Source: Halobacteriovorax sp. HLS
Lineage (GTDB): Bacteria; Bdellovibrionota; Bacteriovoracia; Bacteriovoracales; Bacteriovoracaceae
NCBI RefSeq assembly: GCF_004006665.1
Contig: NZ_QOCL01000009.1
Location: 62,001 to 126,000, forward strand
Direction of reading: 5' to 3'
DNA: 64,000 nucleotides
Under the pieces are notes generated by a model, which saw only the letters and a list, made by a program, of their open reading frames with translations, made no database searches and was not told where the DNA came from. Each line of letters begins with the position of its first letter. Position 1 is the stretch's first letter. A program made the translations under genes and the position numbers. This document shows, piece by piece, positions 118 through 61,573 of the stretch.

Positions 118-633
118 ATGAAGAACTATCTAGCTACTACTATTCAGAATGAAAGGTTAAAGACAGGGCTAAATCAGGAGCAAATGGCGAAGGCCACTGG
201 CCTTGGGCTAAAAACAATTCGAAAGATTGAACAAGGCGATATGTCAGTTAAGATGAAAAATATCAATAAGTGTTTAAATTTTCTTGGTATGGAACTTGGC
301 CCAGCTAAGCTTGTGGCCTCTCCGGAAATCAAGTTGAAGAAACAACTTTCTAAAGAGGAAGTTCTAAAGACACTATCAGGAGCTATGAGCATATTTAAGA
401 AAAGGTATAATCTAAAAGAACTTGGATTATTTGGCTCATTCTCTAGAGATGAACAAGCAGAGGATTCAGATATAGACATTCTTTTTTGCGGAGATACCAC
501 CTTTAAAGAAGAAGGTGAAATGACATTAATTTTAGAACATATCTTGGATGGCCATAAAGTTGACTTTACTAATAAGGCCCATCTTAATGAAAGTTTGAAG
601 GAGTCTATTCTAGAGGACGTTATTTATGTCTAA
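118..633 (+). CDS. mntA: XRE HTH fused to MntA-type nucleotidyltransferase antitoxin (type VII TA)
   Basis: Residues 10-60 form an XRE/HipB-like helix-turn-helix. Residues 80-170 form a minimal nucleotidyltransferase with the exact GS-x10-DxD signature: G106, S107, D118 and D120. In characterised MntA-HepT systems the MNT antitoxin transfers AMP to a tyrosine of the HEPN toxin and so silences it. Here the antitoxin also carries its own DNA-binding domain, which fits the two palindromes just upstream. The ATG at 118 is preceded by GAGGG. The gene overlaps the downstream hepT by 8 bases, so the two are almost certainly co-translated. Typical MntA proteins lack the HTH, making this a fusion variant. 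Family assignment is strong; neutralisation of the neighbour is inferred from context. Confidence 0.88.
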   Translation: MKNYLATTIQNERLKTGLNQEQMAKATGLGLKTIRKIEQGDMSVKMKNINKCLNFLGMELGPAKLVASPEIKLKKQLSKEEVLKTLSGAMSIFKKRYNLKELGLFGSFSRDEQAEDSDIDILFCGDTTFKEEGEMTLILEHILDGHKVDFTNKAHLNESLKESILEDVIYV

Positions 634-988
634 AAAATATAAGTCTGATAAGATTTATCTAGAGATGGTAATAGAGCATTGTGAGCGAATAAAAGAGTAT
701 TCAATTGACCTCACTCTAGATGAGTTGCAAAAGAAGGGACTTGTTTTTGATGGTATTTTAATGCGAGCGCAAGCTATCGGTGAAAATATTAGTAAAATTG
801 AAAATGGACAAGATAACCTGATTAGAAACTTTAGAGATACAATTGATTGGAGTGGATTGAAAAGATTTAGAGATGTAATTTCTCATAGGTATGAACAAAT
901 CAGGCCAGATATTCTCTTTAATTTTATTCAAATAGAAATAGATAAAATAATTGAAGGGGCCCGACAGATTCTCAAGCAAAGATACTAA
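626..988 (+). CDS. hepT: HEPN-domain toxin HepT
   Basis: This 120-residue helical protein is of the HepT/DUF86 family. The HEPN active-site motif Rx4HxY is intact (R82, H87, Y89). HEPN toxins of this type are RNases, and the tyrosine of the motif is the site AMPylated by the cognate MntA enzyme. The start codon lies inside the 3' end of the mntA-like gene, 8 bases overlapping, with GAGG upstream of the ATG. Nothing looks truncated. The pair forms a complete type VII toxin-antitoxin module. Its cellular target cannot be read from sequence. Confidence 0.9.
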   Translation: MSKKYKSDKIYLEMVIEHCERIKEYSIDLTLDELQKKGLVFDGILMRAQAIGENISKIENGQDNLIRNFRDTIDWSGLKRFRDVISHRYEQIRPDILFNFIQIEIDKIIEGARQILKQRY

Positions 989-2159: not shown

Positions 2160-2235
2160 AGAATTATTATTCATCTTATGTTAGATCATTTTAAATGAGC
2201 TAGATTAAGCTGATAATTATGTGTACCATTTTCTT

Positions 2236-3306
2236 ATGAAATCAATTATCTATATTCTTACAATTTTCATTTGTTTTAATACCTCTGCCATTAATGGAAG
2301 TGTGGAAGTAGCTAAGGTTCCACTTTCTAAATTAAAGCTAAAAGAGGTTTTAAATACTTCGGGAGTTGTATGGAGCTTTTCTTTTATAAACTCTCGTGAG
2401 CTTCTATACACTATTCGTGACGGAAAACTCTTTCATTTAAATATGGAAACAAACACGACAACTAGACTCTCTAATCCTAACGTCCACGCGAAGGGACAAG
2501 GTGGGCTTCTTGATGTTCAGTATTATAAAGTAAGAAATAAGTTCTACATCTATGTAACTTTTAGCGAAAAGAAAAGTGATGTTGTGACAACTAGTCTTGC
2601 ACGAGCTTCATTTGAAATCATAAAAGGTATTCCCACTACTGGAAAGTGGGAAGTACTCTTTAGTGCAAATGTAAAAAGCAGTACCTCTAAGCATTTTGGC
2701 TCTAGATTAGTTAGAAGTGGTGACTACCTCTTTATGGGAATAGGTGATCGTGGTCATAGAGAGTATGCACAAGATAAAAATCTCCATAATGGTAAGATTC
2801 TAAAATTGACGATGGAGGGGAAGGTCCAATTATGGAGTATTGGTCATCGAAATCCTCAAGGCATGGATATTGACCCAGTGTCAGGAGATCTCTATAGCTG
2901 TGAATTTGGACCAAGAGGCGGGGACGAACTAAATCTAGTTATTAAAGGAAAGAACTACGGGTGGCCTTTAACTACTTATGGTAGTGAATACTGGGGTCCA
3001 AGTATTGGAACAACTCAGATGAAGGGAATGGAGCGGCCAATAATGTACTGGACTCCAAGTATCTCTCCCTCAGGAATGGCCTTTTATACTGGAGATAAAG
3101 TTAAGCAGTGGAAAAATAATCTCTTTCTTGCAAACCTCTCAAGCAGGCACTTAAGAAGACTTGTTTTAAAAGATAAGAAAGTCATTGAACAAGAGATCTT
3201 ACTTTCTGATTTTAAACAGAGAATTCGCCATGTGAGAAGTGCTCCAGATGGTTATCTCTATATATCAACAGACTCTGGTAAAATAATTCGTATCTCTTAT
3301 GAATGA
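2236..3306 (+). CDS. PQQ-dependent soluble aldose sugar dehydrogenase family protein, secreted
   Basis: A signal peptide (MKSIIYILTIFICFNTSA) leads into a six-bladed beta-propeller of the glucose/sorbosone dehydrogenase family (GSDH). Hallmarks are GGLLDVQYY, GSRLVRSGDYLFMGIGDRG and GHRNPQG, where Arg-Asn-Pro-Gln matches the PQQ-contacting segment of soluble glucose dehydrogenase. Enzymes of this family oxidise sugars in the periplasm using PQQ. No PQQ biosynthesis genes lie in this window. I prefer the ATG at 2236 over an in-frame GTG at 2221 because the signal peptide starts there; neither has a clear ribosome site. Its stop region overlaps the convergent zinc permease gene by 10 bases. Confidence 0.85.
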   Translation: MKSIIYILTIFICFNTSAINGSVEVAKVPLSKLKLKEVLNTSGVVWSFSFINSRELLYTIRDGKLFHLNMETNTTTRLSNPNVHAKGQGGLLDVQYYKVRNKFYIYVTFSEKKSDVVTTSLARASFEIIKGIPTTGKWEVLFSANVKSSTSKHFGSRLVRSGDYLFMGIGDRGHREYAQDKNLHNGKILKLTMEGKVQLWSIGHRNPQGMDIDPVSGDLYSCEFGPRGGDELNLVIKGKNYGWPLTTYGSEYWGPSIGTTQMKGMERPIMYWTPSISPSGMAFYTGDKVKQWKNNLFLANLSSRHLRRLVLKDKKVIEQEILLSDFKQRIRHVRSAPDGYLYISTDSGKIIRISYE

Positions 3307-4097
3307 CTTTTAGAAAGCATTGTTTTTAAAATCAAACACATGATGAAAAGAAGAAGTATCTGTGCTGAAGAAGTACTAATATTTTCAAATACGATTGAAA
3401 GAAGCAATCCAACTACAGAAGCTGTCGCGGCCATTAGTGCGATAACTTTATTAGATGTTCTTTGACTTTTAAACGAAGTTCCAAGTATCAGATTAGGAAT
3501 CAAAAGAAAGCTTAATGTGTATAGAAACCCTAATCCATAGAGTGAGACAACTAGTGGAATTGAAAATAGAAGTAGATCAAAGGTACTCTTTGGCCTTACT
3601 TTGAATATATTAATATCTAGCGATCTTCTGGAGATTTCTTTGGAGTAGATCTGACTCAAAAGAAAAAAGACTAAGAACACCACGATCAAGACAATATTTT
3701 CCATAAATGAAGAAGTCACCATATTTCCAAAGAATCCAAGACTCATGTGACTATCAAGTTGAGGAAAGAAGCCTATTAGCAGGTATTGAACAGAAATAAT
3801 ACAAAGGTATATACCAACCATATAAGGACCATAGATATTTTTTTGAATATCTATCTTTGAAAGTAATACCTTTCCTAGACTAAAAGAGACATAGCTGACG
3901 ATGAGTGCTTGGGCGCCATTTTCTGAAGAGTGAAAAATGAGTTTTGCTAATAAATTACCAATTAGAGCAAATTGAGATAGCGCAAAAATCTCTAGCACTT
4001 TTCCTCTTACTAATTGATGATGACCTAGAATCGATAAGGATGAAGCTGAGCTAAATGCGACTAAGAATGAGAATTTATAAAAGAGTAGTAATTCCAT
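3297..4097 (-). CDS. znuB: Zinc ABC transporter permease, ZnuB family
   Basis: This 266-residue, highly hydrophobic protein has about eight predicted membrane segments and the layout of the ABC-3 (ZnuB/MntB) family, ending with a helical repeat rich in Ile and Leu. It follows the ATPase gene with no intergenic base and is the last gene of a six-gene zinc operon transcribed leftward. Sequence conservation is modest, so the call rests partly on position next to a clear ZnuA and an ABC ATPase. It would form the inner-membrane channel for zinc, possibly other divalent metals. It converges with the dehydrogenase gene, overlapping it by 10 bases. Confidence 0.85.
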   Translation of the reverse strand: MELLLFYKFSFLVAFSSASSLSILGHHQLVRGKVLEIFALSQFALIGNLLAKLIFHSSENGAQALIVSYVSFSLGKVLLSKIDIQKNIYGPYMVGIYLCIISVQYLLIGFFPQLDSHMSLGFFGNMVTSSFMENIVLIVVFLVFFLLSQIYSKEISRRSLDINIFKVRPKSTFDLLLFSIPLVVSLYGLGFLYTLSFLLIPNLILGTSFKSQRTSNKVIALMAATASVVGLLLSIVFENISTSSAQILLLFIMCLILKTMLSKSHS

Positions 4098-4670
4098 TTA
4101 AAGAATAATCTCCTTCGTCTGAATATTATCAATGCTAATTTTAAGATGACTTACTAATAATAGAGAAGAGACAATCTTCGTCTTTATTAAAGAACTTAAT
4201 AATTGTTTAATCATATCTACAGAGTCAGAATCGAGGTGGTTAAAAGGCTCATCTAGAATGAGTAGCTTTGAATTCTCTTTTACTTTTGTAAGGATCATTG
4301 TCTTTTGCTTCTCTCCACCGCTGGACTTTGTCCAACTTTGAGATAGTTGATCAGCTGTAAAGAAATCATAGTATTTTTTTGAAACACCGTATATTTCTAA
4401 AATTTCTCTTATCGTATATGAAAAGTGAGCTTCAGTATTAGTTAATTGTGGAAGATAAGAAACTTGCTCTTTTGTCACTGACCAATTGATCTGTCCATCA
4501 AGTTGTTTAACTTCACTTAGTATCGTCTTAATGAGTGTAGATTTTCCTGTGCCGTTTTTTCCTTGAAGAAAAGTCATTTCTCCTTCAAGGATATCAAATG
4601 AAAGATTAGACCTTAGGGGCGAGTTATAACCAATTGATAAATTTTGACAAGAAAGGATTTTATTTTTCAT
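4098..4670 (-). CDS. znuC: Zinc ABC transporter ATP-binding protein, ZnuC-like (short)
   Basis: Complete ABC ATPase motifs are visible: Walker A GKNGTGKST at residues 37-45, Q-loop in SYLPQLT, signature SSGGE, Walker B LLILDEP, and an H-loop histidine in LLVSHL. At 190 residues it is shorter than typical ZnuC (230-250), lacking the C-terminal extension. It overlaps the znuA-like gene by 11 bases and abuts the permease. The protein powers zinc import at the inner membrane. The signature has S-S-G-G-E rather than L-S-G-G-E, a tolerated change. Confidence 0.88.
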   Translation of the reverse strand: MKNKILSCQNLSIGYNSPLRSNLSFDILEGEMTFLQGKNGTGKSTLIKTILSEVKQLDGQINWSVTKEQVSYLPQLTNTEAHFSYTIREILEIYGVSKKYYDFFTADQLSQSWTKSSGGEKQKTMILTKVKENSKLLILDEPFNHLDSDSVDMIKQLLSSLIKTKIVSSLLLVSHLKISIDNIQTKEIIL

Positions 4671-5568
4671 CTATACTTGCTTGTAATATCTTTCTAGCGA
4701 TAAATTCTTGATGTTTGCCATAAGACGATAGGTCACTTTGATCAAGTATACTCAAAGGCAATTTAACGACAGGGATTTTACTCATCTCATTAAACTTCTT
4801 TAAGATTCCTGAAGGAGAAGTCGTTGTTGCTAAAACAGCATAGATATTTTGATTCTTTGCAGTTATAGAAACTCTTGCCAGTCGACCTGCAGAAGGCGGT
4901 ACGCCTGGAACCTTTTCTACTGCGCCAAGGTTATTTAGTTTGTACTCATTCATAAAGTAAGTGAATTCTCTATGATATTCTAGAAAATTTGATTTTTGTA
5001 CGGGTTCTAAAATTTGTGTAACCTTTTTCTTAATTGAGTTTAGTTCGGACTCTAAAGCTTCAAATTGCTTTAAGTAGTACTCAGCATTCTTGCTATCAAC
5101 TGTGATTAGAGTATCAAGGATCGTTTGTGCCCCTTGAAGAAATGCCGTTGGGCTTAAGTGATAGTGCGGGTTTCCTTGAGGATGAATATCTCCTTGGGAG
5201 CGGTCAATCTTTCCTGTTGGAACATTGAGTGCTTTGACGGATTTTCCAGTTTCGCAATAACCTCTTCCTCCAGGTTGCACATGCTTATTACCAGATCGAG
5301 ATAATATTTTCGGGGCCCAACCTATTTCTAATTCCATCCCAACTAAGCAAAATAGATCAGCATTTGCGACCTTCCCAATAAAGTGAGGCATGGCATCTAT
5401 ATAATGAGGATCTTCTGTACCATTTAAAAGAGATTCGACTTGAACTTTATCCCCTCCAATCTTTTGCGCAAGCCATTTGATATCAGTTGTCGTTGTTATA
5501 ACTGAGAGCTTGGCCTGTGCCATTAATGGAAGGAGAAAGAATAGTGTTAAAAGTATTTTAGAAGTCAT
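4660..5568 (-). CDS. znuA: Zinc ABC transporter substrate-binding protein, ZnuA family
   Basis: A signal peptide (residues 1-19, cleavage after AQA) is followed by a cluster A-I metal-binding fold. Likely zinc ligands are H55 in TEDPHYIDA, H135 or H137 in NPHYHLSP, and H199 in EYHREF, matching the three histidines of ZnuA proteins. It lacks the long His/Asp-rich loop found in E. coli ZnuA; such segments occur instead in separate upstream proteins of the same operon. It delivers periplasmic zinc to the ZnuB/ZnuC pair. The gene overlaps both neighbours (10 bases with the barrel gene, 11 with znuC), showing tight co-translation. Manganese as substrate is a less likely alternative. Confidence 0.92.
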   Translation of the reverse strand: MTSKILLTLFFLLPLMAQAKLSVITTTTDIKWLAQKIGGDKVQVESLLNGTEDPHYIDAMPHFIGKVANADLFCLVGMELEIGWAPKILSRSGNKHVQPGGRGYCETGKSVKALNVPTGKIDRSQGDIHPQGNPHYHLSPTAFLQGAQTILDTLITVDSKNAEYYLKQFEALESELNSIKKKVTQILEPVQKSNFLEYHREFTYFMNEYKLNNLGAVEKVPGVPPSAGRLARVSITAKNQNIYAVLATTTSPSGILKKFNEMSKIPVVKLPLSILDQSDLSSYGKHQEFIARKILQASIDEK

Positions 5569-6625
5569 GTGCTGGGTGGCTCCCGATAATTAGAATAAGT
5601 TGTAACTGTGCTCTAGTATCTTTTGCAATTGTATGACCTTCTTCTCTGTCAAATTCATGAGCGAGAGTGAATCGAATCTTTGCAAATTCACTCGATGTGT
5701 AAGTTAACTGAGTGAGAGCGCCATAGCTGATATTATTTATTTTCTTATTTGTTATTGAGTTTGTTTTAGATAAATCCTTAAAAGCATCTAATCTAAAACC
5801 AATATTTGTAAACTGACCTGTAGAAAAATCATTGAAGATATAGGTTCCAACTTGTTCGCTAACTTCTTTATTAGCGTTTTCAACTGACTTATACCAAATC
5901 TCAGATAGAAATAGATAGTCTACGATTCTTCCATGCTTTGATTTACCAGTAAAATCAAAACCAATTAGCTTCATATCATTTTTTTGAGCATCAGTACGTC
6001 CAAGGTAGTTAAGACCGAGGTCTAGTCCACTAGTTGAACTAAAAGGGGAGAAGCTCGATAGGCGAAAATAGTGTGTAGGAACCTTTGGCTTTGAGCCTGA
6101 AGTGTGTGAGTGGCCATAGCTGTGTCCACTTGTTAATCCAACAGTTAAATTCAGAGAATGAGTCGTAGGAAGAAGGTAGTTATATTCTAGACCCGAATCG
6201 TAAACACCTTCATCGTCAAAGAACGAACGGTGAATTTTTGGCGCTCTTGTAAATGGCCAATCATGTTGATGGAATCTATTTAAGCGACCAATTCCAAGAA
6301 AGAACTGTCCCACTTTAAAGTTTGAGCGTGGGATAATTTTTGAAGAAGATAGGTAGAGTTCGTGTAGCTCAAAAACTGTTTGTCCGTCTTCATAATGAGC
6401 AGCAGCACTTAGAACACCATTAAATTGATGGTCAACAGGGGAGAAGAACACGATCTCCGCTCCTCTCATCGTTAATAACTCATTTGCCTGACTGTCACTA
6501 TTAAGGCCTTGCTCGTAAAGCATATCACCAGAGACAGCAATTTCTAAACCTGTTCCTAAAAGACCTTGTGAAAAAGTCTTTGAACATAATAGAATTATAG
6601 TGAGAGTGAAGAATATTTTACGCAT
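5558..6625 (-). CDS. Putative outer-membrane beta-barrel protein of the zinc operon
   Basis: The product has a signal peptide (MRKIFFTLTIILLCSKTFSQ) and alternating hydrophobic/polar strands ending in a C-terminal phenylalanine, as in outer-membrane barrels. There is no TonB box or plug domain, so it differs from ZnuD receptors. A His-rich loop (GHSYGHSH) sits near the middle. I start it at the ATG at 6625; a GTG at 6637 is possible. It overlaps both the lipoprotein gene upstream and znuA downstream. Position and loop suggest a role in zinc binding or passage across the outer membrane, but this is inference. I do not recognise a named family. Confidence 0.7.
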   Translation of the reverse strand: MRKIFFTLTIILLCSKTFSQGLLGTGLEIAVSGDMLYEQGLNSDSQANELLTMRGAEIVFFSPVDHQFNGVLSAAAHYEDGQTVFELHELYLSSSKIIPRSNFKVGQFFLGIGRLNRFHQHDWPFTRAPKIHRSFFDDEGVYDSGLEYNYLLPTTHSLNLTVGLTSGHSYGHSHTSGSKPKVPTHYFRLSSFSPFSSTSGLDLGLNYLGRTDAQKNDMKLIGFDFTGKSKHGRIVDYLFLSEIWYKSVENANKEVSEQVGTYIFNDFSTGQFTNIGFRLDAFKDLSKTNSITNKKINNISYGALTQLTYTSSEFAKIRFTLAHEFDREEGHTIAKDTRAQLQLILIIGSHPAHDF

Positions 6626-7253
6626 CAGATAGTGCACCCAATGGACCTTCTAATAAGATAATCAATTCACTGTCACCACTGAAGCCCCAAAATGATCCGC
6701 CTGCTTTACCAACACCTAGCCAAGTGTCAAAAGCAAAGTCTTCTGTGTTATAAAGACAACCACCATCAAAAGTACAATCTTCATCATCACTATGTGTGCC
6801 AAGGTGATCCCAAGCAAGCATATGAACATCTGTATGATCATTGTGAATGTCGATATCTATATCTATAACTTCAGTATTATTTAAAGTGCTGATTTCGCGC
6901 AAATGTGATTTGCCATTAATTGATATTTCTAGACTTACTTTGCCTGCATTTTTTGAAAATTCAAAATCAGCTCCACCAGATAAGTCTCTTGAAGAGAAGA
7001 AGTGAAACTTAAGTTTTCTACCTTCAGGAAGTTTGAACTTTAAGTGGAAGCTATGGGCCGAATTACCACCATTGTCGGAAGTTCCTCTAAGTAAGAACTT
7101 ACCATCTGCAGTTGTGATTGCATCTAGTCCGCCAATGATTTTATTAATTGGATCATCTAATAAATTTGCTCCTGTATCAGCGCCAGTTAAGGCGCCACAT
7201 GAAGTCACAAGCAAATTAAGTAGTGTAAGTATTATAATTGTAAACTTATTCAT
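6618..7253 (-). CDS. Putative metal-binding lipoprotein of the zinc operon
   Basis: The N-terminus has a lipobox (LLVTSCG), so the mature protein is a lipoprotein anchored at Cys19. The body is a beta-rich domain with a His/Asp-rich stretch between about residues 130 and 160 (IHNDHTDVHMLAWDHLGTHSDDED) followed by two cysteines, plausible metal ligands. It is the second gene of the zinc operon, 21 bases after the His-rich gene, and overlaps the barrel gene. I know no named family for it. Zinc scavenging or storage in the periplasm or at the cell surface is inferred from composition and neighbours. Confidence 0.7.
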   Translation of the reverse strand: MNKFTIIILTLLNLLVTSCGALTGADTGANLLDDPINKIIGGLDAITTADGKFLLRGTSDNGGNSAHSFHLKFKLPEGRKLKFHFFSSRDLSGGADFEFSKNAGKVSLEISINGKSHLREISTLNNTEVIDIDIDIHNDHTDVHMLAWDHLGTHSDDEDCTFDGGCLYNTEDFAFDTWLGVGKAGGSFWGFSGDSELIILLEGPLGALSDA

Positions 7254-7274
7254 AGTTACCTCTTAAAGAGTTTT

Positions 7275-7913
7275 TTAATGAGCGTGATCGTGATCATCAT
7301 CTCCAAAATCTAGAGTAGGTTCACCTTCACCTTCACCTTCTTTGCTGTAGTGACAAGCAAAATCCAGTTCACTTCCATGAACATGACATAGAACAAAAAT
7401 TTCTTTAGCTTGTCCATTTAGAGAGTAATTGATTTTTGTCCAAACATCTGTTCCGGCACCATGACCGTCTGAGTGGTCATCCTTGTGAGTCCATACTTTA
7501 TATGAAGTAGCAACACTAAGGTCAGCACCATTTCTAACCATTGCTTTTTCAAATTTATTAAGAGCGACGAGGTGACCTTTTTTGATAAAGTCTAAAGTAA
7601 CTGATGGATCTTTTACTTGTCGATTATCTCCATGTCCGTGATGTTCTTCATGACATGCTAGTGAATCACCGTGTAAGTGACATCCGTATCCAAGTTGAAT
7701 AGCGTCAGTATTAATGATTTTTACGACAATTTCTTCTTGAGACTCTAGAACTGTCTCCCAGGCCGTAATAGAGTTTTCATCTATTTCTACTGATGCCTCT
7801 AAAAGCGAAGCATTGGTTGCAGGAAGTAGCTGGAGACCATTTATTGTTGAAGCAAAAGTATTCGCTTGTAAGAGTAGAGTAAGGGCAGTTATTGAAAATA
7901 ATGATTTAAACAT
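7275..7913 (-). CDS. Secreted His-rich protein with duplicated Cys-His motif, first gene of zinc operon
   Basis: The start is the ATG at 7913, which has GGAGGA upstream; a longer frame to 7943 is unlikely because the signal peptide (MFKSLFSITALTLLLQANTFA) begins here. The 212-residue product is rich in His and Asp. A motif CHxHG...ACH occurs twice, at residues 78-88 and 176-188, and the first copy continues into HEEHHGHG. Two further clusters are THKDDHSDGH near residue 145 and the C-terminal DDDHDHAH. No CxxCH haem motif is present, so zinc is the likeliest ligand. It is the promoter-proximal gene behind a Zur/Fur-like palindrome. Function as zinc trap or chaperone is inferred. Confidence 0.75.
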   Translation of the reverse strand: MFKSLFSITALTLLLQANTFASTINGLQLLPATNASLLEASVEIDENSITAWETVLESQEEIVVKIINTDAIQLGYGCHLHGDSLACHEEHHGHGDNRQVKDPSVTLDFIKKGHLVALNKFEKAMVRNGADLSVATSYKVWTHKDDHSDGHGAGTDVWTKINYSLNGQAKEIFVLCHVHGSELDFACHYSKEGEGEGEPTLDFGDDDHDHAH

Positions 7914-7952
7914 GTAATCCTCCGTTTCTAGTATTTCTAGCAATAGAATCTA

Positions 7953-7977
7953 ATAATTGCAAGTCACTTGCAATTAT
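7953..7977. promoter_or_regulatory. Perfect 25-bp palindrome, candidate Zur/Fur-family box
   Basis: The arms ATAATTGCAAGT and ACTTGCAATTAT are perfect inverted repeats around a single C at 7965. A long AT-rich palindrome with a TTGCAA core, placed 40 bases before the first zinc-operon gene, fits a Fur-family (Zur) operator. No poly-T follows, and the spacer is too short for a hairpin loop, so DNA binding is more likely than termination. The regulator gene itself is not in this window. Confidence 0.7.
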
Positions 7978-8089: not shown

Positions 8090-8539
8090 ATGGCAGTTTC
8101 AGCTAGTGAGACAATCAAAGCATCGATTGATCAGGTTTGGGCCTGTGTAATTGATATAGAAAGAGCAAAAGATAGAATTGAGTGTATTAAGGATATTGAA
8201 ATTCTTGAGAAACCACATTCTGGAGTAGTTGGACTTAAGTGGAGAGAAACTCGTGAGATGTTTGGCAAAGAAGCAGTAGAGACCATGTGGATTACTGAGG
8301 CCCGTGAAAATGAATATTATATTACTGAGGCCAATAATTGTGGTTGTCTCTATCATTCAACTATTTCATTAAAAGACCTAGGTGACTGCGTTGAACTTTC
8401 CATGAGTTTCAAGGCCACTGCGCAAAGCTTTAGTGCGAAGTTGATGTCTCCATTGATGTTTTTAATGGGTGGCATGATTAAAAAGGCCTTCAAAAAAGAC
8501 CTTCAAGATATTAAAAAAAGTTTAGAGGGCCAAGATTAG
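8090..8539 (+). CDS. SRPBCC-fold (polyketide cyclase/START-like) protein
   Basis: The 149-residue protein opens with ASETIKASIDQVWACVIDIERAKD, the classic first strand and helix of an SRPBCC domain, and ends with the long C-terminal helix. These proteins bind hydrophobic ligands; none can be assigned. A strong AAGGAGAGG ribosome site precedes the ATG. It stands alone, divergent from the zinc operon, and its stop overlaps the convergent small exported gene by 4 bases. Confidence 0.8.
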   Translation: MAVSASETIKASIDQVWACVIDIERAKDRIECIKDIEILEKPHSGVVGLKWRETREMFGKEAVETMWITEARENEYYITEANNCGCLYHSTISLKDLGDCVELSMSFKATAQSFSAKLMSPLMFLMGGMIKKAFKKDLQDIKKSLEGQD

Positions 8540-60807: not shown

Positions 60808-61573
60808 TAAGCAACAAATATTCTTACATGATGAACATGAGTATCATTATTCATTCCAAGATATTGATGGTTATAGAATTGGTTTCTTTATTTCTAGAAA
60901 TAAAGAAAAAACTTTTCAAGAAAATGAAGATACCCTCTTTATCCAAAAGAATGAGCAAGAACTTATTTTTGGTGTTGCTGATGGAGCGGGTGGACACCCA
61001 AGAGGGAGAGATGCCGCATTTTTGATTGGTAATGAATTAATTTCTACTGATAGAACAGATCATGTTTATCATATTGATGACCTTAATAAGAAAATTATTG
61101 ATTTAAAGGTAGGGGCGAAATCAACTTTGGCCTTTGCTGCTATAAAAGAAGACTTAATTAGATTCTATACAGTTGGAGATTCAGAGATCATATATTGGAA
61201 TGGTCATGGGAATGAAATTTTTACTTCAACTCCACATTCTAATTCAGGGTTAAAAGTTAGGGCAGGAATAACTTCACAGACTGACTCTTTAGATGATCCT
61301 GATCGATACCTTGTTAATAATTTGATGGGAGATGAATTTATAAGAATTGAAAGTACTTCCGGCGTGCCTATTAAAAAAGGGCATACGATACTTATCGGTT
61401 CAGATGGTCTCTTTGATAATATAAGTCATGAAGATCTCACTGAGATAGTTGGAAGAGGTTCTTTTGATAAGTCTTTTCAAGGATTGGTTGATCTTTGTAT
61501 TGAGCAAGATCCAGAACGTTGGCTAAAAAATGATGATATTACATTTATTTTTCTTAGAAAAATAAAGGCGTAA
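60794..61573 (+). CDS. PP2C-family protein phosphatase
   Basis: 259 residues with PP2C metal-binding motifs: GVADGAGGHPRGRDAA, SDGLFDNIS and DDITFIF. STP-type bacterial PP2C enzymes remove phosphate from Ser/Thr. Pairing with the overlapping kinase gene suggests a reversible phosphorylation switch; substrates are unknown. No membrane segment. Confidence 0.9.
   Translation: MQLDSKQQIFLHDEHEYHYSFQDIDGYRIGFFISRNKEKTFQENEDTLFIQKNEQELIFGVADGAGGHPRGRDAAFLIGNELISTDRTDHVYHIDDLNKKIIDLKVGAKSTLAFAAIKEDLIRFYTVGDSEIIYWNGHGNEIFTSTPHSNSGLKVRAGITSQTDSLDDPDRYLVNNLMGDEFIRIESTSGVPIKKGHTILIGSDGLFDNISHEDLTEIVGRGSFDKSFQGLVDLCIEQDPERWLKNDDITFIFLRKIKA

Follow-up and report, generated by a model that had tools for sequence, protein, structure and literature searches.

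A predicted Zur-controlled zinc-uptake operon of Halobacteriovorax that combines a ZnuABC-type importer with an OprP-like porin and two further exported proteins

How zinc crosses the outer membrane without a TonB-dependent receptor is poorly understood. A Caulobacter Zur study notes how little is known about outer-membrane zinc transport (PMC4176598). The question is raised by a six-gene cluster in a 64,000-nucleotide stretch (the window) of Halobacteriovorax sp. HLS (contig NZ_QOCL01000009.1, positions 62,001 to 126,000), which an initial annotation had taken for a zinc operon. All six open reading frames (ORFs) were found on the minus strand, running from 7913 to 3297. As that annotation had held, three exported proteins, here termed H, lipoprotein L and barrel O, precede ZnuA-, ZnuC- and ZnuB-like proteins (Table 1), and the genes are overlapping or closely spaced. 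A gap of 21 bp, the largest, separates H from L, the reading frames of L and O overlap by 8 bp (20 bp if O begins at its GTG codon), O and znuA share 11 bp, as do znuA and the ATPase gene, and the ATPase and permease genes abut. Judged by this spacing, the six genes are probably co-transcribed. We interpret them as a Zur-repressed, high-affinity zinc-uptake operon equipped with a porin and a periplasmic relay of its own; this combined model draws on sequence comparison and structure prediction, and we assign it a probability of roughly 0.6.

The control of the operon was approached through a palindrome in the intergenic gap between 7913 and 8090. Perfect 23-mer palindromes occur on average 0.05 times per shuffled window, and the real window contains only one other, unrelated, at 61544. 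The 21-bp core of the palindrome is present as a single copy in the genome, even with up to 3 mismatches allowed. The looser pattern WTGCAA-N5-TTGCAW has 3 sites in the 3.84-Mb genome (reversed control, 0), one of which is the palindrome itself. The second lies approximately 47 bp upstream of a MerC-domain gene adjoining the genome's only Fur-family gene, which in turn is transcribed divergently from a gene for a COG0523 GTPase. Genes of the COG0523 family are established Zur targets (PMC2770081), and a Desulfovibrio Zur site, ATGCAACNNNGTTGCAT, has the same half-site and spacing as the palindrome (PMC545781, Table 5).

The same box was found in related genomes. Four other species of the genus have 2-6 boxes each, against 0 in the control, and these lie upstream of the barrel operon in 3 of the 4 species and of the same MerC gene in all 4. 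In other relatives the box precedes zur and COG0523 genes and, in a genome that lacks this operon (locus L237), zrgA. A match of at least 11 of 12 positions was present in 27 of 41 operon promoters and in 8 of 594 other genes of the same loci (Fisher value 3e-30, indicative only because the sequences are related), and several of the matches outside operons belong to divergent Fur-family (zur) or MerC genes. A Fur-family gene lies next to the operon in divergent orientation at four loci (L062, L066, L069 and L102), and at L249 the box lies between H-L-O and a divergent znuC-znuB-znuA-zur-zrgA cluster. The operon promoter thus shares its box with other zinc-homeostasis genes of the same and related genomes, and on this regulon evidence the palindrome, initially described as Fur-family-like, is very probably a Zur box. 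The choice of zinc as the metal is supported by the same shared box, and Zur-controlled zinc import is the part of the model held with high confidence. Control by iron through Fur was rejected, as the genome has a single Fur-family gene and the box targets inspected included none for iron. An ArsR-family rather than a Fur-family regulator is divergent from the barrel operon in two genomes of the family (L096:5951-6241 and L100:6193-6483).

The last three genes encode the ATP-binding cassette (ABC) core. The ZnuA-like protein matches PF01297 with 144.5 bits (cut-off 29; E 5.6e-42), and the ATPase matches PF00005 with 72.1 bits (cut-off 25; E 8.8e-20) and contains Walker A, Q-loop, SSGGEKQ, Walker B and H-loop motifs. 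The permease scores 11.4 bits against PF00950, below the cut-off of 20.1, and matches NCBIfam AztB with E 1.9e-4; the position of its gene is conserved in 49 loci. Across 54 relatives, His55, His135 and His199, at the three canonical ligand positions, are invariant, as is an additional His129, and there is no conserved acidic fourth ligand. The His-rich loop of E. coli ZnuA is absent, as first noticed, and the single invariant His129 is found instead. With PF01297 matched above its cut-off, three His ligands and a cognate ABC ATPase, the core is probably of ZnuABC type. Membership of AztABC was considered and rejected because the NCBIfam equivalog cut-offs were missed by a wide margin (AztC, 83.6 of 350 bits; AztA, 79 of 220; AztB, 21.2 of 280). 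Neither a ZIP protein nor a further ZnuA-family protein was found in this genome, and the operon is therefore the sole zinc importer recognized by these searches.

The nature of the barrel was examined by structure prediction. The AlphaFold2 model of O (predicted local distance difference test score (pLDDT) 94; predicted template modeling score (pTM) 0.87) has 16 strands and no plug, and its best match among solved structures is OprP (Z 28.1; root-mean-square deviation (rmsd) 3.5 over 312 residues). A 32-residue segment that links strands 5 and 6, where porins have their loop L3, bears an invariant HxH motif; Glu57, Asp65, Glu89, His350 and His353 (numbered from the ATG codon) are also invariant, and the terminal Phe was read from the sequence. 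A TonB-dependent receptor of the ZnuD kind was rejected, as PF07715 and PF00593 are absent, the strands number 16 rather than 22 and there is no plug. Porin_O_P (PF07396) did not match O of the window and matched 1 of 45 relatives (E 0.0056), although the fold is nonetheless similar; the BBP2 OmpL-like porin family (PF07642) matched 17 of the 45 at E values up to 0.01 (best, 5.7e-6) and did not match O of the window. Sequence-profile searches of the PDB gave no match for O or H and only chance-level matches for L. That O is a zinc entry pore is somewhat more probable than not.

Protein H begins at an ATG codon (a TTG at 7943 is too early), and its signal peptide, like those of the other exported proteins, was read from the sequence. 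It had been described as His-rich, which is true of it, but the conserved feature is a pair of CHxH...CH motifs and not poly-His. In the structure model (pLDDT 87.7; pTM 0.83) an alpha-beta4 unit occurs twice, and Cys78 stands opposite Cys87, and Cys176 opposite Cys187, in two hairpins. Cys78 and Cys87 of hairpin 1 are invariant among relatives, as are Cys176, His177 and His188 of hairpin 2, where Cys187 is nearly so. Distant relatives have lost the His residues of hairpin 1 and kept the Cys pair, which therefore fits a disulfide. From the strand positions, it is plausible that His79, His81 and His88, and likewise His177, His179 and His188, lie on the other face of their hairpin and form a three-His zinc site. 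No Pfam or NCBIfam family matched H, and Foldseek alone gave no significant structural match; the best fold match (4exr; Z 10.0; rmsd 3.3 over 130 residues) came from re-alignment. Neither H nor L is ZrgA: PF10986 matched none of the window proteins or their relatives, whereas the same library detects ZrgA in L237 and L249.

The genomic settings of H bear on its function. At L240 a box stands ahead of genes for a lipoprotein, a TonB-dependent receptor and H, and this arrangement, together with that of L249, ties H to zinc import and an outer-membrane step, whatever the channel. Of all the evidence, these settings speak most strongly for a role of H as periplasmic partner in zinc entry, and H is somewhat more probably than not a periplasmic zinc binder. 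Exported proteins of approximately 94 amino acids with a single H-type alpha-beta4 unit (CHRH...ECH) were also seen at L242-L245 (genomes G268, G114, G050 and G036; e.g., L244:3955-4227), where they adjoin a CMSCHS lipoprotein and lie near genes of copper type, for a heavy-metal P-ATPase and a CsoR-like repressor; these are possibly a copper-linked relative of H.

Lipoprotein L has the lipobox LVTSC, read from its sequence, and no Pfam family matched it. Within its family motif His137 is invariant, and Asp135, Asn138, His144 and Trp148 are each conserved in at least 90% of members. It is tentatively predicted to be an outer-membrane partner of O. Paralogs of L occur at sites separate from the zinc operon, next to a dcd-like gene (L246:3544-4209 and L247:3478-4116), in genomes of family f6 and genus g79, the genus of the Bdellovibrio bacteriovorus strain discussed below.

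Table 1. Window coordinates of the operon genes, the predicted Zur box and the conserved motifs
Feature	Position	Strand	Description
Gene H	7275..7913	-	212-aa exported protein, modeled tandem alpha-beta4 fold, two CHxH...CH hairpins; predicted relay or buffer for periplasmic zinc
Gene L	6618..7253	-	211-aa lipoprotein, Cys19
Gene O	5558..6625	-	Predicted 16-stranded outer-membrane porin, OprP-like fold, predicted to be selective for zinc; alternative GTG start 6637
ZnuA-like substrate-binding protein	4660..5568	-	PF01297; without His-rich loop
ZnuC-like ATPase	4098..4670	-	190 aa; PF00005
ZnuB-like permease, divergent	3297..4097	-	Weak PF00950/AztB matches
Palindrome, predicted Zur box	7953..7977		Perfect 25-bp, ATAATTGCAAGTCACTTGCAATTAT, TGCAA-N5-TTGCA
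H hairpin 1	7650..7682	-	C78-H79-x-H81...C87-H88; strands 72-81/84-94 in model
H hairpin 2	7350..7388	-	C176-H177-x-H179...C187-H188; strands 168-179/185-190 in model
Lipoprotein L motif	6810..6851	-	D135-x-HN...H144...W148
O L3-like segment	6203..6298	-	Residues 110-141, invariant H119-x-H121

Conservation of the gene set was followed in 291 Bdellovibrionota genomes. The barrel was present in 101 of these, a ZnuA-like protein in 112 and the two combined in 93, and 95 of 107 barrel copies had a ZnuA match within 2.5 kb. Full-length H was found in 26 genomes (24 of them with the barrel), and L in 49, approximately 34 times at the operon. Two forms of the operon were distinguished: H-L-O-A-C-B (A, C and B being the znuA-, znuC- and znuB-like genes) with its reductions, and one without H and L in which a small exported protein precedes O-A-B. 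The six-gene form occurs in Bacteriovoracales, Halobacteriovorax and Oligoflexales, and a strain of B. bacteriovorus (L146) has H-L-O followed by ATPase and permease genes, with a ZnuA match (G265). Conservation across the phylum, which had been proposed as a check, therefore holds for the full set in only part of Bdellovibrionota and more widely for barrel and ZnuA, which are also paired in other phyla: L-O-A-C-B in a Chromatiales symbiont, Candidatus Manganitrophus and a betaproteobacterial metagenome-assembled genome (MAG); L-O-A-B in a zetaproteobacterial MAG; O-A-C-B in Leptospiraceae, Rokubacteria and Lentisphaerales MAGs; and O-A-B in Vibrio campbellii and Sulfurovum. H was found in Bdellovibrionota only; it was absent from 398 genomes of the phylum of the Chromatiales locus and from 12 outside genomes or records, and no match turned up in plasmids, which, with no positive control outside Bdellovibrionota, is weak evidence of absence.

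Several variants of the locus were observed. In second-form operons (L103-L119) the barrel is preceded by an exported protein of approximately 100 amino acids ending in RAPP or RGPP, often with Cys and His, and an ATPase call is often missing. In three congeners (L070, L071 and L073) a carbonic anhydrase-like gene, assigned by sequence only to this family of zinc enzymes, lies upstream of the barrel-znuABC operon, and in two of them H-L-O is a separate locus (L063 and L067). A very His-rich exported protein of approximately 630-700 amino acids adjoins the operon in Halobacteriovorax-like genomes, divergent at L064:9247-11130, where it has no Pfam family, and on the same strand at L132:2590-4698; this protein may also belong to the zinc system.

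The combined model can be stated as a sequence of steps. When zinc is scarce, Zur would leave the palindrome and the six genes would be transcribed together. O would act as a TonB-independent pore whose conserved His and acidic residues and L3-like HxH favor the passage of Zn2+, with L at the outer membrane beside it and H in the periplasm. In H, each repeat would present a beta-hairpin clamped by its Cys pair, with three His residues on one face that capture zinc and deliver it to the ZnuA-like protein, and the ABC pump would power import. Tight periplasmic binding would keep free zinc low, and the net flow through a passive pore would therefore be inward. The outer-membrane-to-cytoplasm route initially proposed is supported by the gene set, albeit as a prediction and with the barrel now predicted to be an OprP-like porin and not a TonB receptor.

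The same operon and regulation would also suit a pore for a small zinc complex (with histidine, citrate, a peptide or a zincophore), with L at the surface capturing zinc or zinc-loaded ligands for O, as in other lipoprotein-barrel pairs. The fold of O is that of substrate-specific porins, the L gene lies immediately upstream of O with overlapping frames, and predatory relatives would presumably encounter prey-derived zinc complexes. However, the operon contains no metallophore biosynthesis genes, and conservation in O falls on His and acidic residues and shows no obvious organic-ligand site. Passage of a complex is considered unlikely. Alternatively, H and L could be periplasmic zinc buffers or protectants and O an ordinary porin with another purpose, leaving zinc uptake to the ABC transporter. 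ZnuABC functions without a dedicated porin in many bacteria, and H and L are missing from many genomes that have O-ZnuA; but no other partner is linked to ZnuA as tightly as O, H stands before or after an outer-membrane channel gene under a Zur box, and Zur control implies expression at low zinc, when protection is unneeded. This explanation is improbable. The metal could, finally, be manganese, nickel, cobalt or copper, as some cluster A-I binding proteins bind Mn or Fe, single-repeat H relatives lie beside copper genes, one NicO-type gene has the box (L235) and another is beside H (L241). The box targets described above, the znuABC-zur-zrgA cluster of L249 and a binding protein with three invariant His residues and no conserved acidic ligand argue against this, and a metal other than zinc is very improbable.

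Uptake of zinc through a dedicated porin and relay has points against it as well. The evidence consists of gene set, gene order, conservation, a common box and predicted folds; the HxH motif was assigned to L3 by strand order alone; and the operon promoters compared are not mutually independent. No zinc target is evident at the third genomic box (C14:387664), which is probably a chance match since it overlaps the start of a SpoIID-like ORF. H and L are evidently dispensable for O-ZnuA function, because many related genomes lack both. A broader proposal sees O as the founding member of a widespread family of zinc-selective porins that do not depend on TonB and are linked genetically to ZnuA-like proteins in several phyla; in Bdellovibrionota, O would work with the undescribed zinc proteins H and L as a surface-to-cytoplasm relay. 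This proposal is about as probable as not.

Neither gene flanking the operon looks related to zinc: a pyrroloquinoline quinone (PQQ)-type sugar dehydrogenase gene (2221-3306), convergent, closes its end, and an SRPBCC-type gene (8090-8539) is divergent on the other side. Elsewhere in the window (118-988), a HepT-like (PF01934) gene follows a fusion of nucleotidyltransferase and XRE-type helix-turn-helix, which constitutes a HEPN/MNT toxin-antitoxin pair with a fused regulator.

The initial annotation did not recognize the system as a described one, and no description of a porin-znuABC operon was found in the open-access literature, subscription papers being outside the search. By sequence comparison, the ABC core is of a known kind, and the porin partner, H and L are without family entries over cut-off. 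A porin family that gene order links to ZnuA in several phyla, and that in Bdellovibrionota is further linked to a Zur box, is a concrete and testable candidate for zinc entry. B. bacteriovorus is a culturable predator, and a strain of the species has the H-L-O genes; H and L are two families lacking Pfam entries, with clear motifs that can be mutated.

Each part of the system has known counterparts. The best fold match of H, the CD1622 lipoprotein of Clostridioides difficile (4exr), has 9% identity, and, so far as observed, the CH motifs are peculiar to H. O matches the phosphate-specific porins OprP and OprO and also DcaP (Z 28.1, 27.8 and 24.8), which are substrate-specific 16-stranded porins, but it has 11% identity, other conserved residues (His, Glu and Asp) and linkage to zinc genes. 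With the TonB-dependent zinc receptors ZnuD and PA2911 it would share a Zur-controlled outer-membrane step of zinc uptake, and at L240 a TonB receptor replaces O beside H; unlike them, O has 16 strands and no plug domain and is predicted to be passive and TonB-independent. ZrgABCDE of V. cholerae and P. aeruginosa (PA4063-4066) comprises a Zur-linked exported zinc protein with a His-rich stretch beside an ABC transporter (PMC9820375), and in relatives G024 and G133 a ZrgA gene carries the same box or lies close to it; here, H and L are not ZrgA, and the permease is probably of the ABC-3/AztB and not the MacB-like kind. Among NCBIfam models, those of AztABCD (Paracoccus) come closest to the binding protein and the permease and also come close to the ATPase; that system likewise has an accessory periplasmic zinc protein within the operon, whereas an outer-membrane porin and a lipoprotein are present here and no AztD-like gene was recognized. 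ZnuABC (cluster A-I, e.g., E. coli) shares with this operon a set of binding protein, ATPase and permease, the PF01297 and PF00005 domains, three His ligands and, as predicted here, Zur control; the present operon differs from it in lacking the His-rich loop, in its 190-amino-acid ATPase and very divergent permease, and in the three exported partners encoded alongside.

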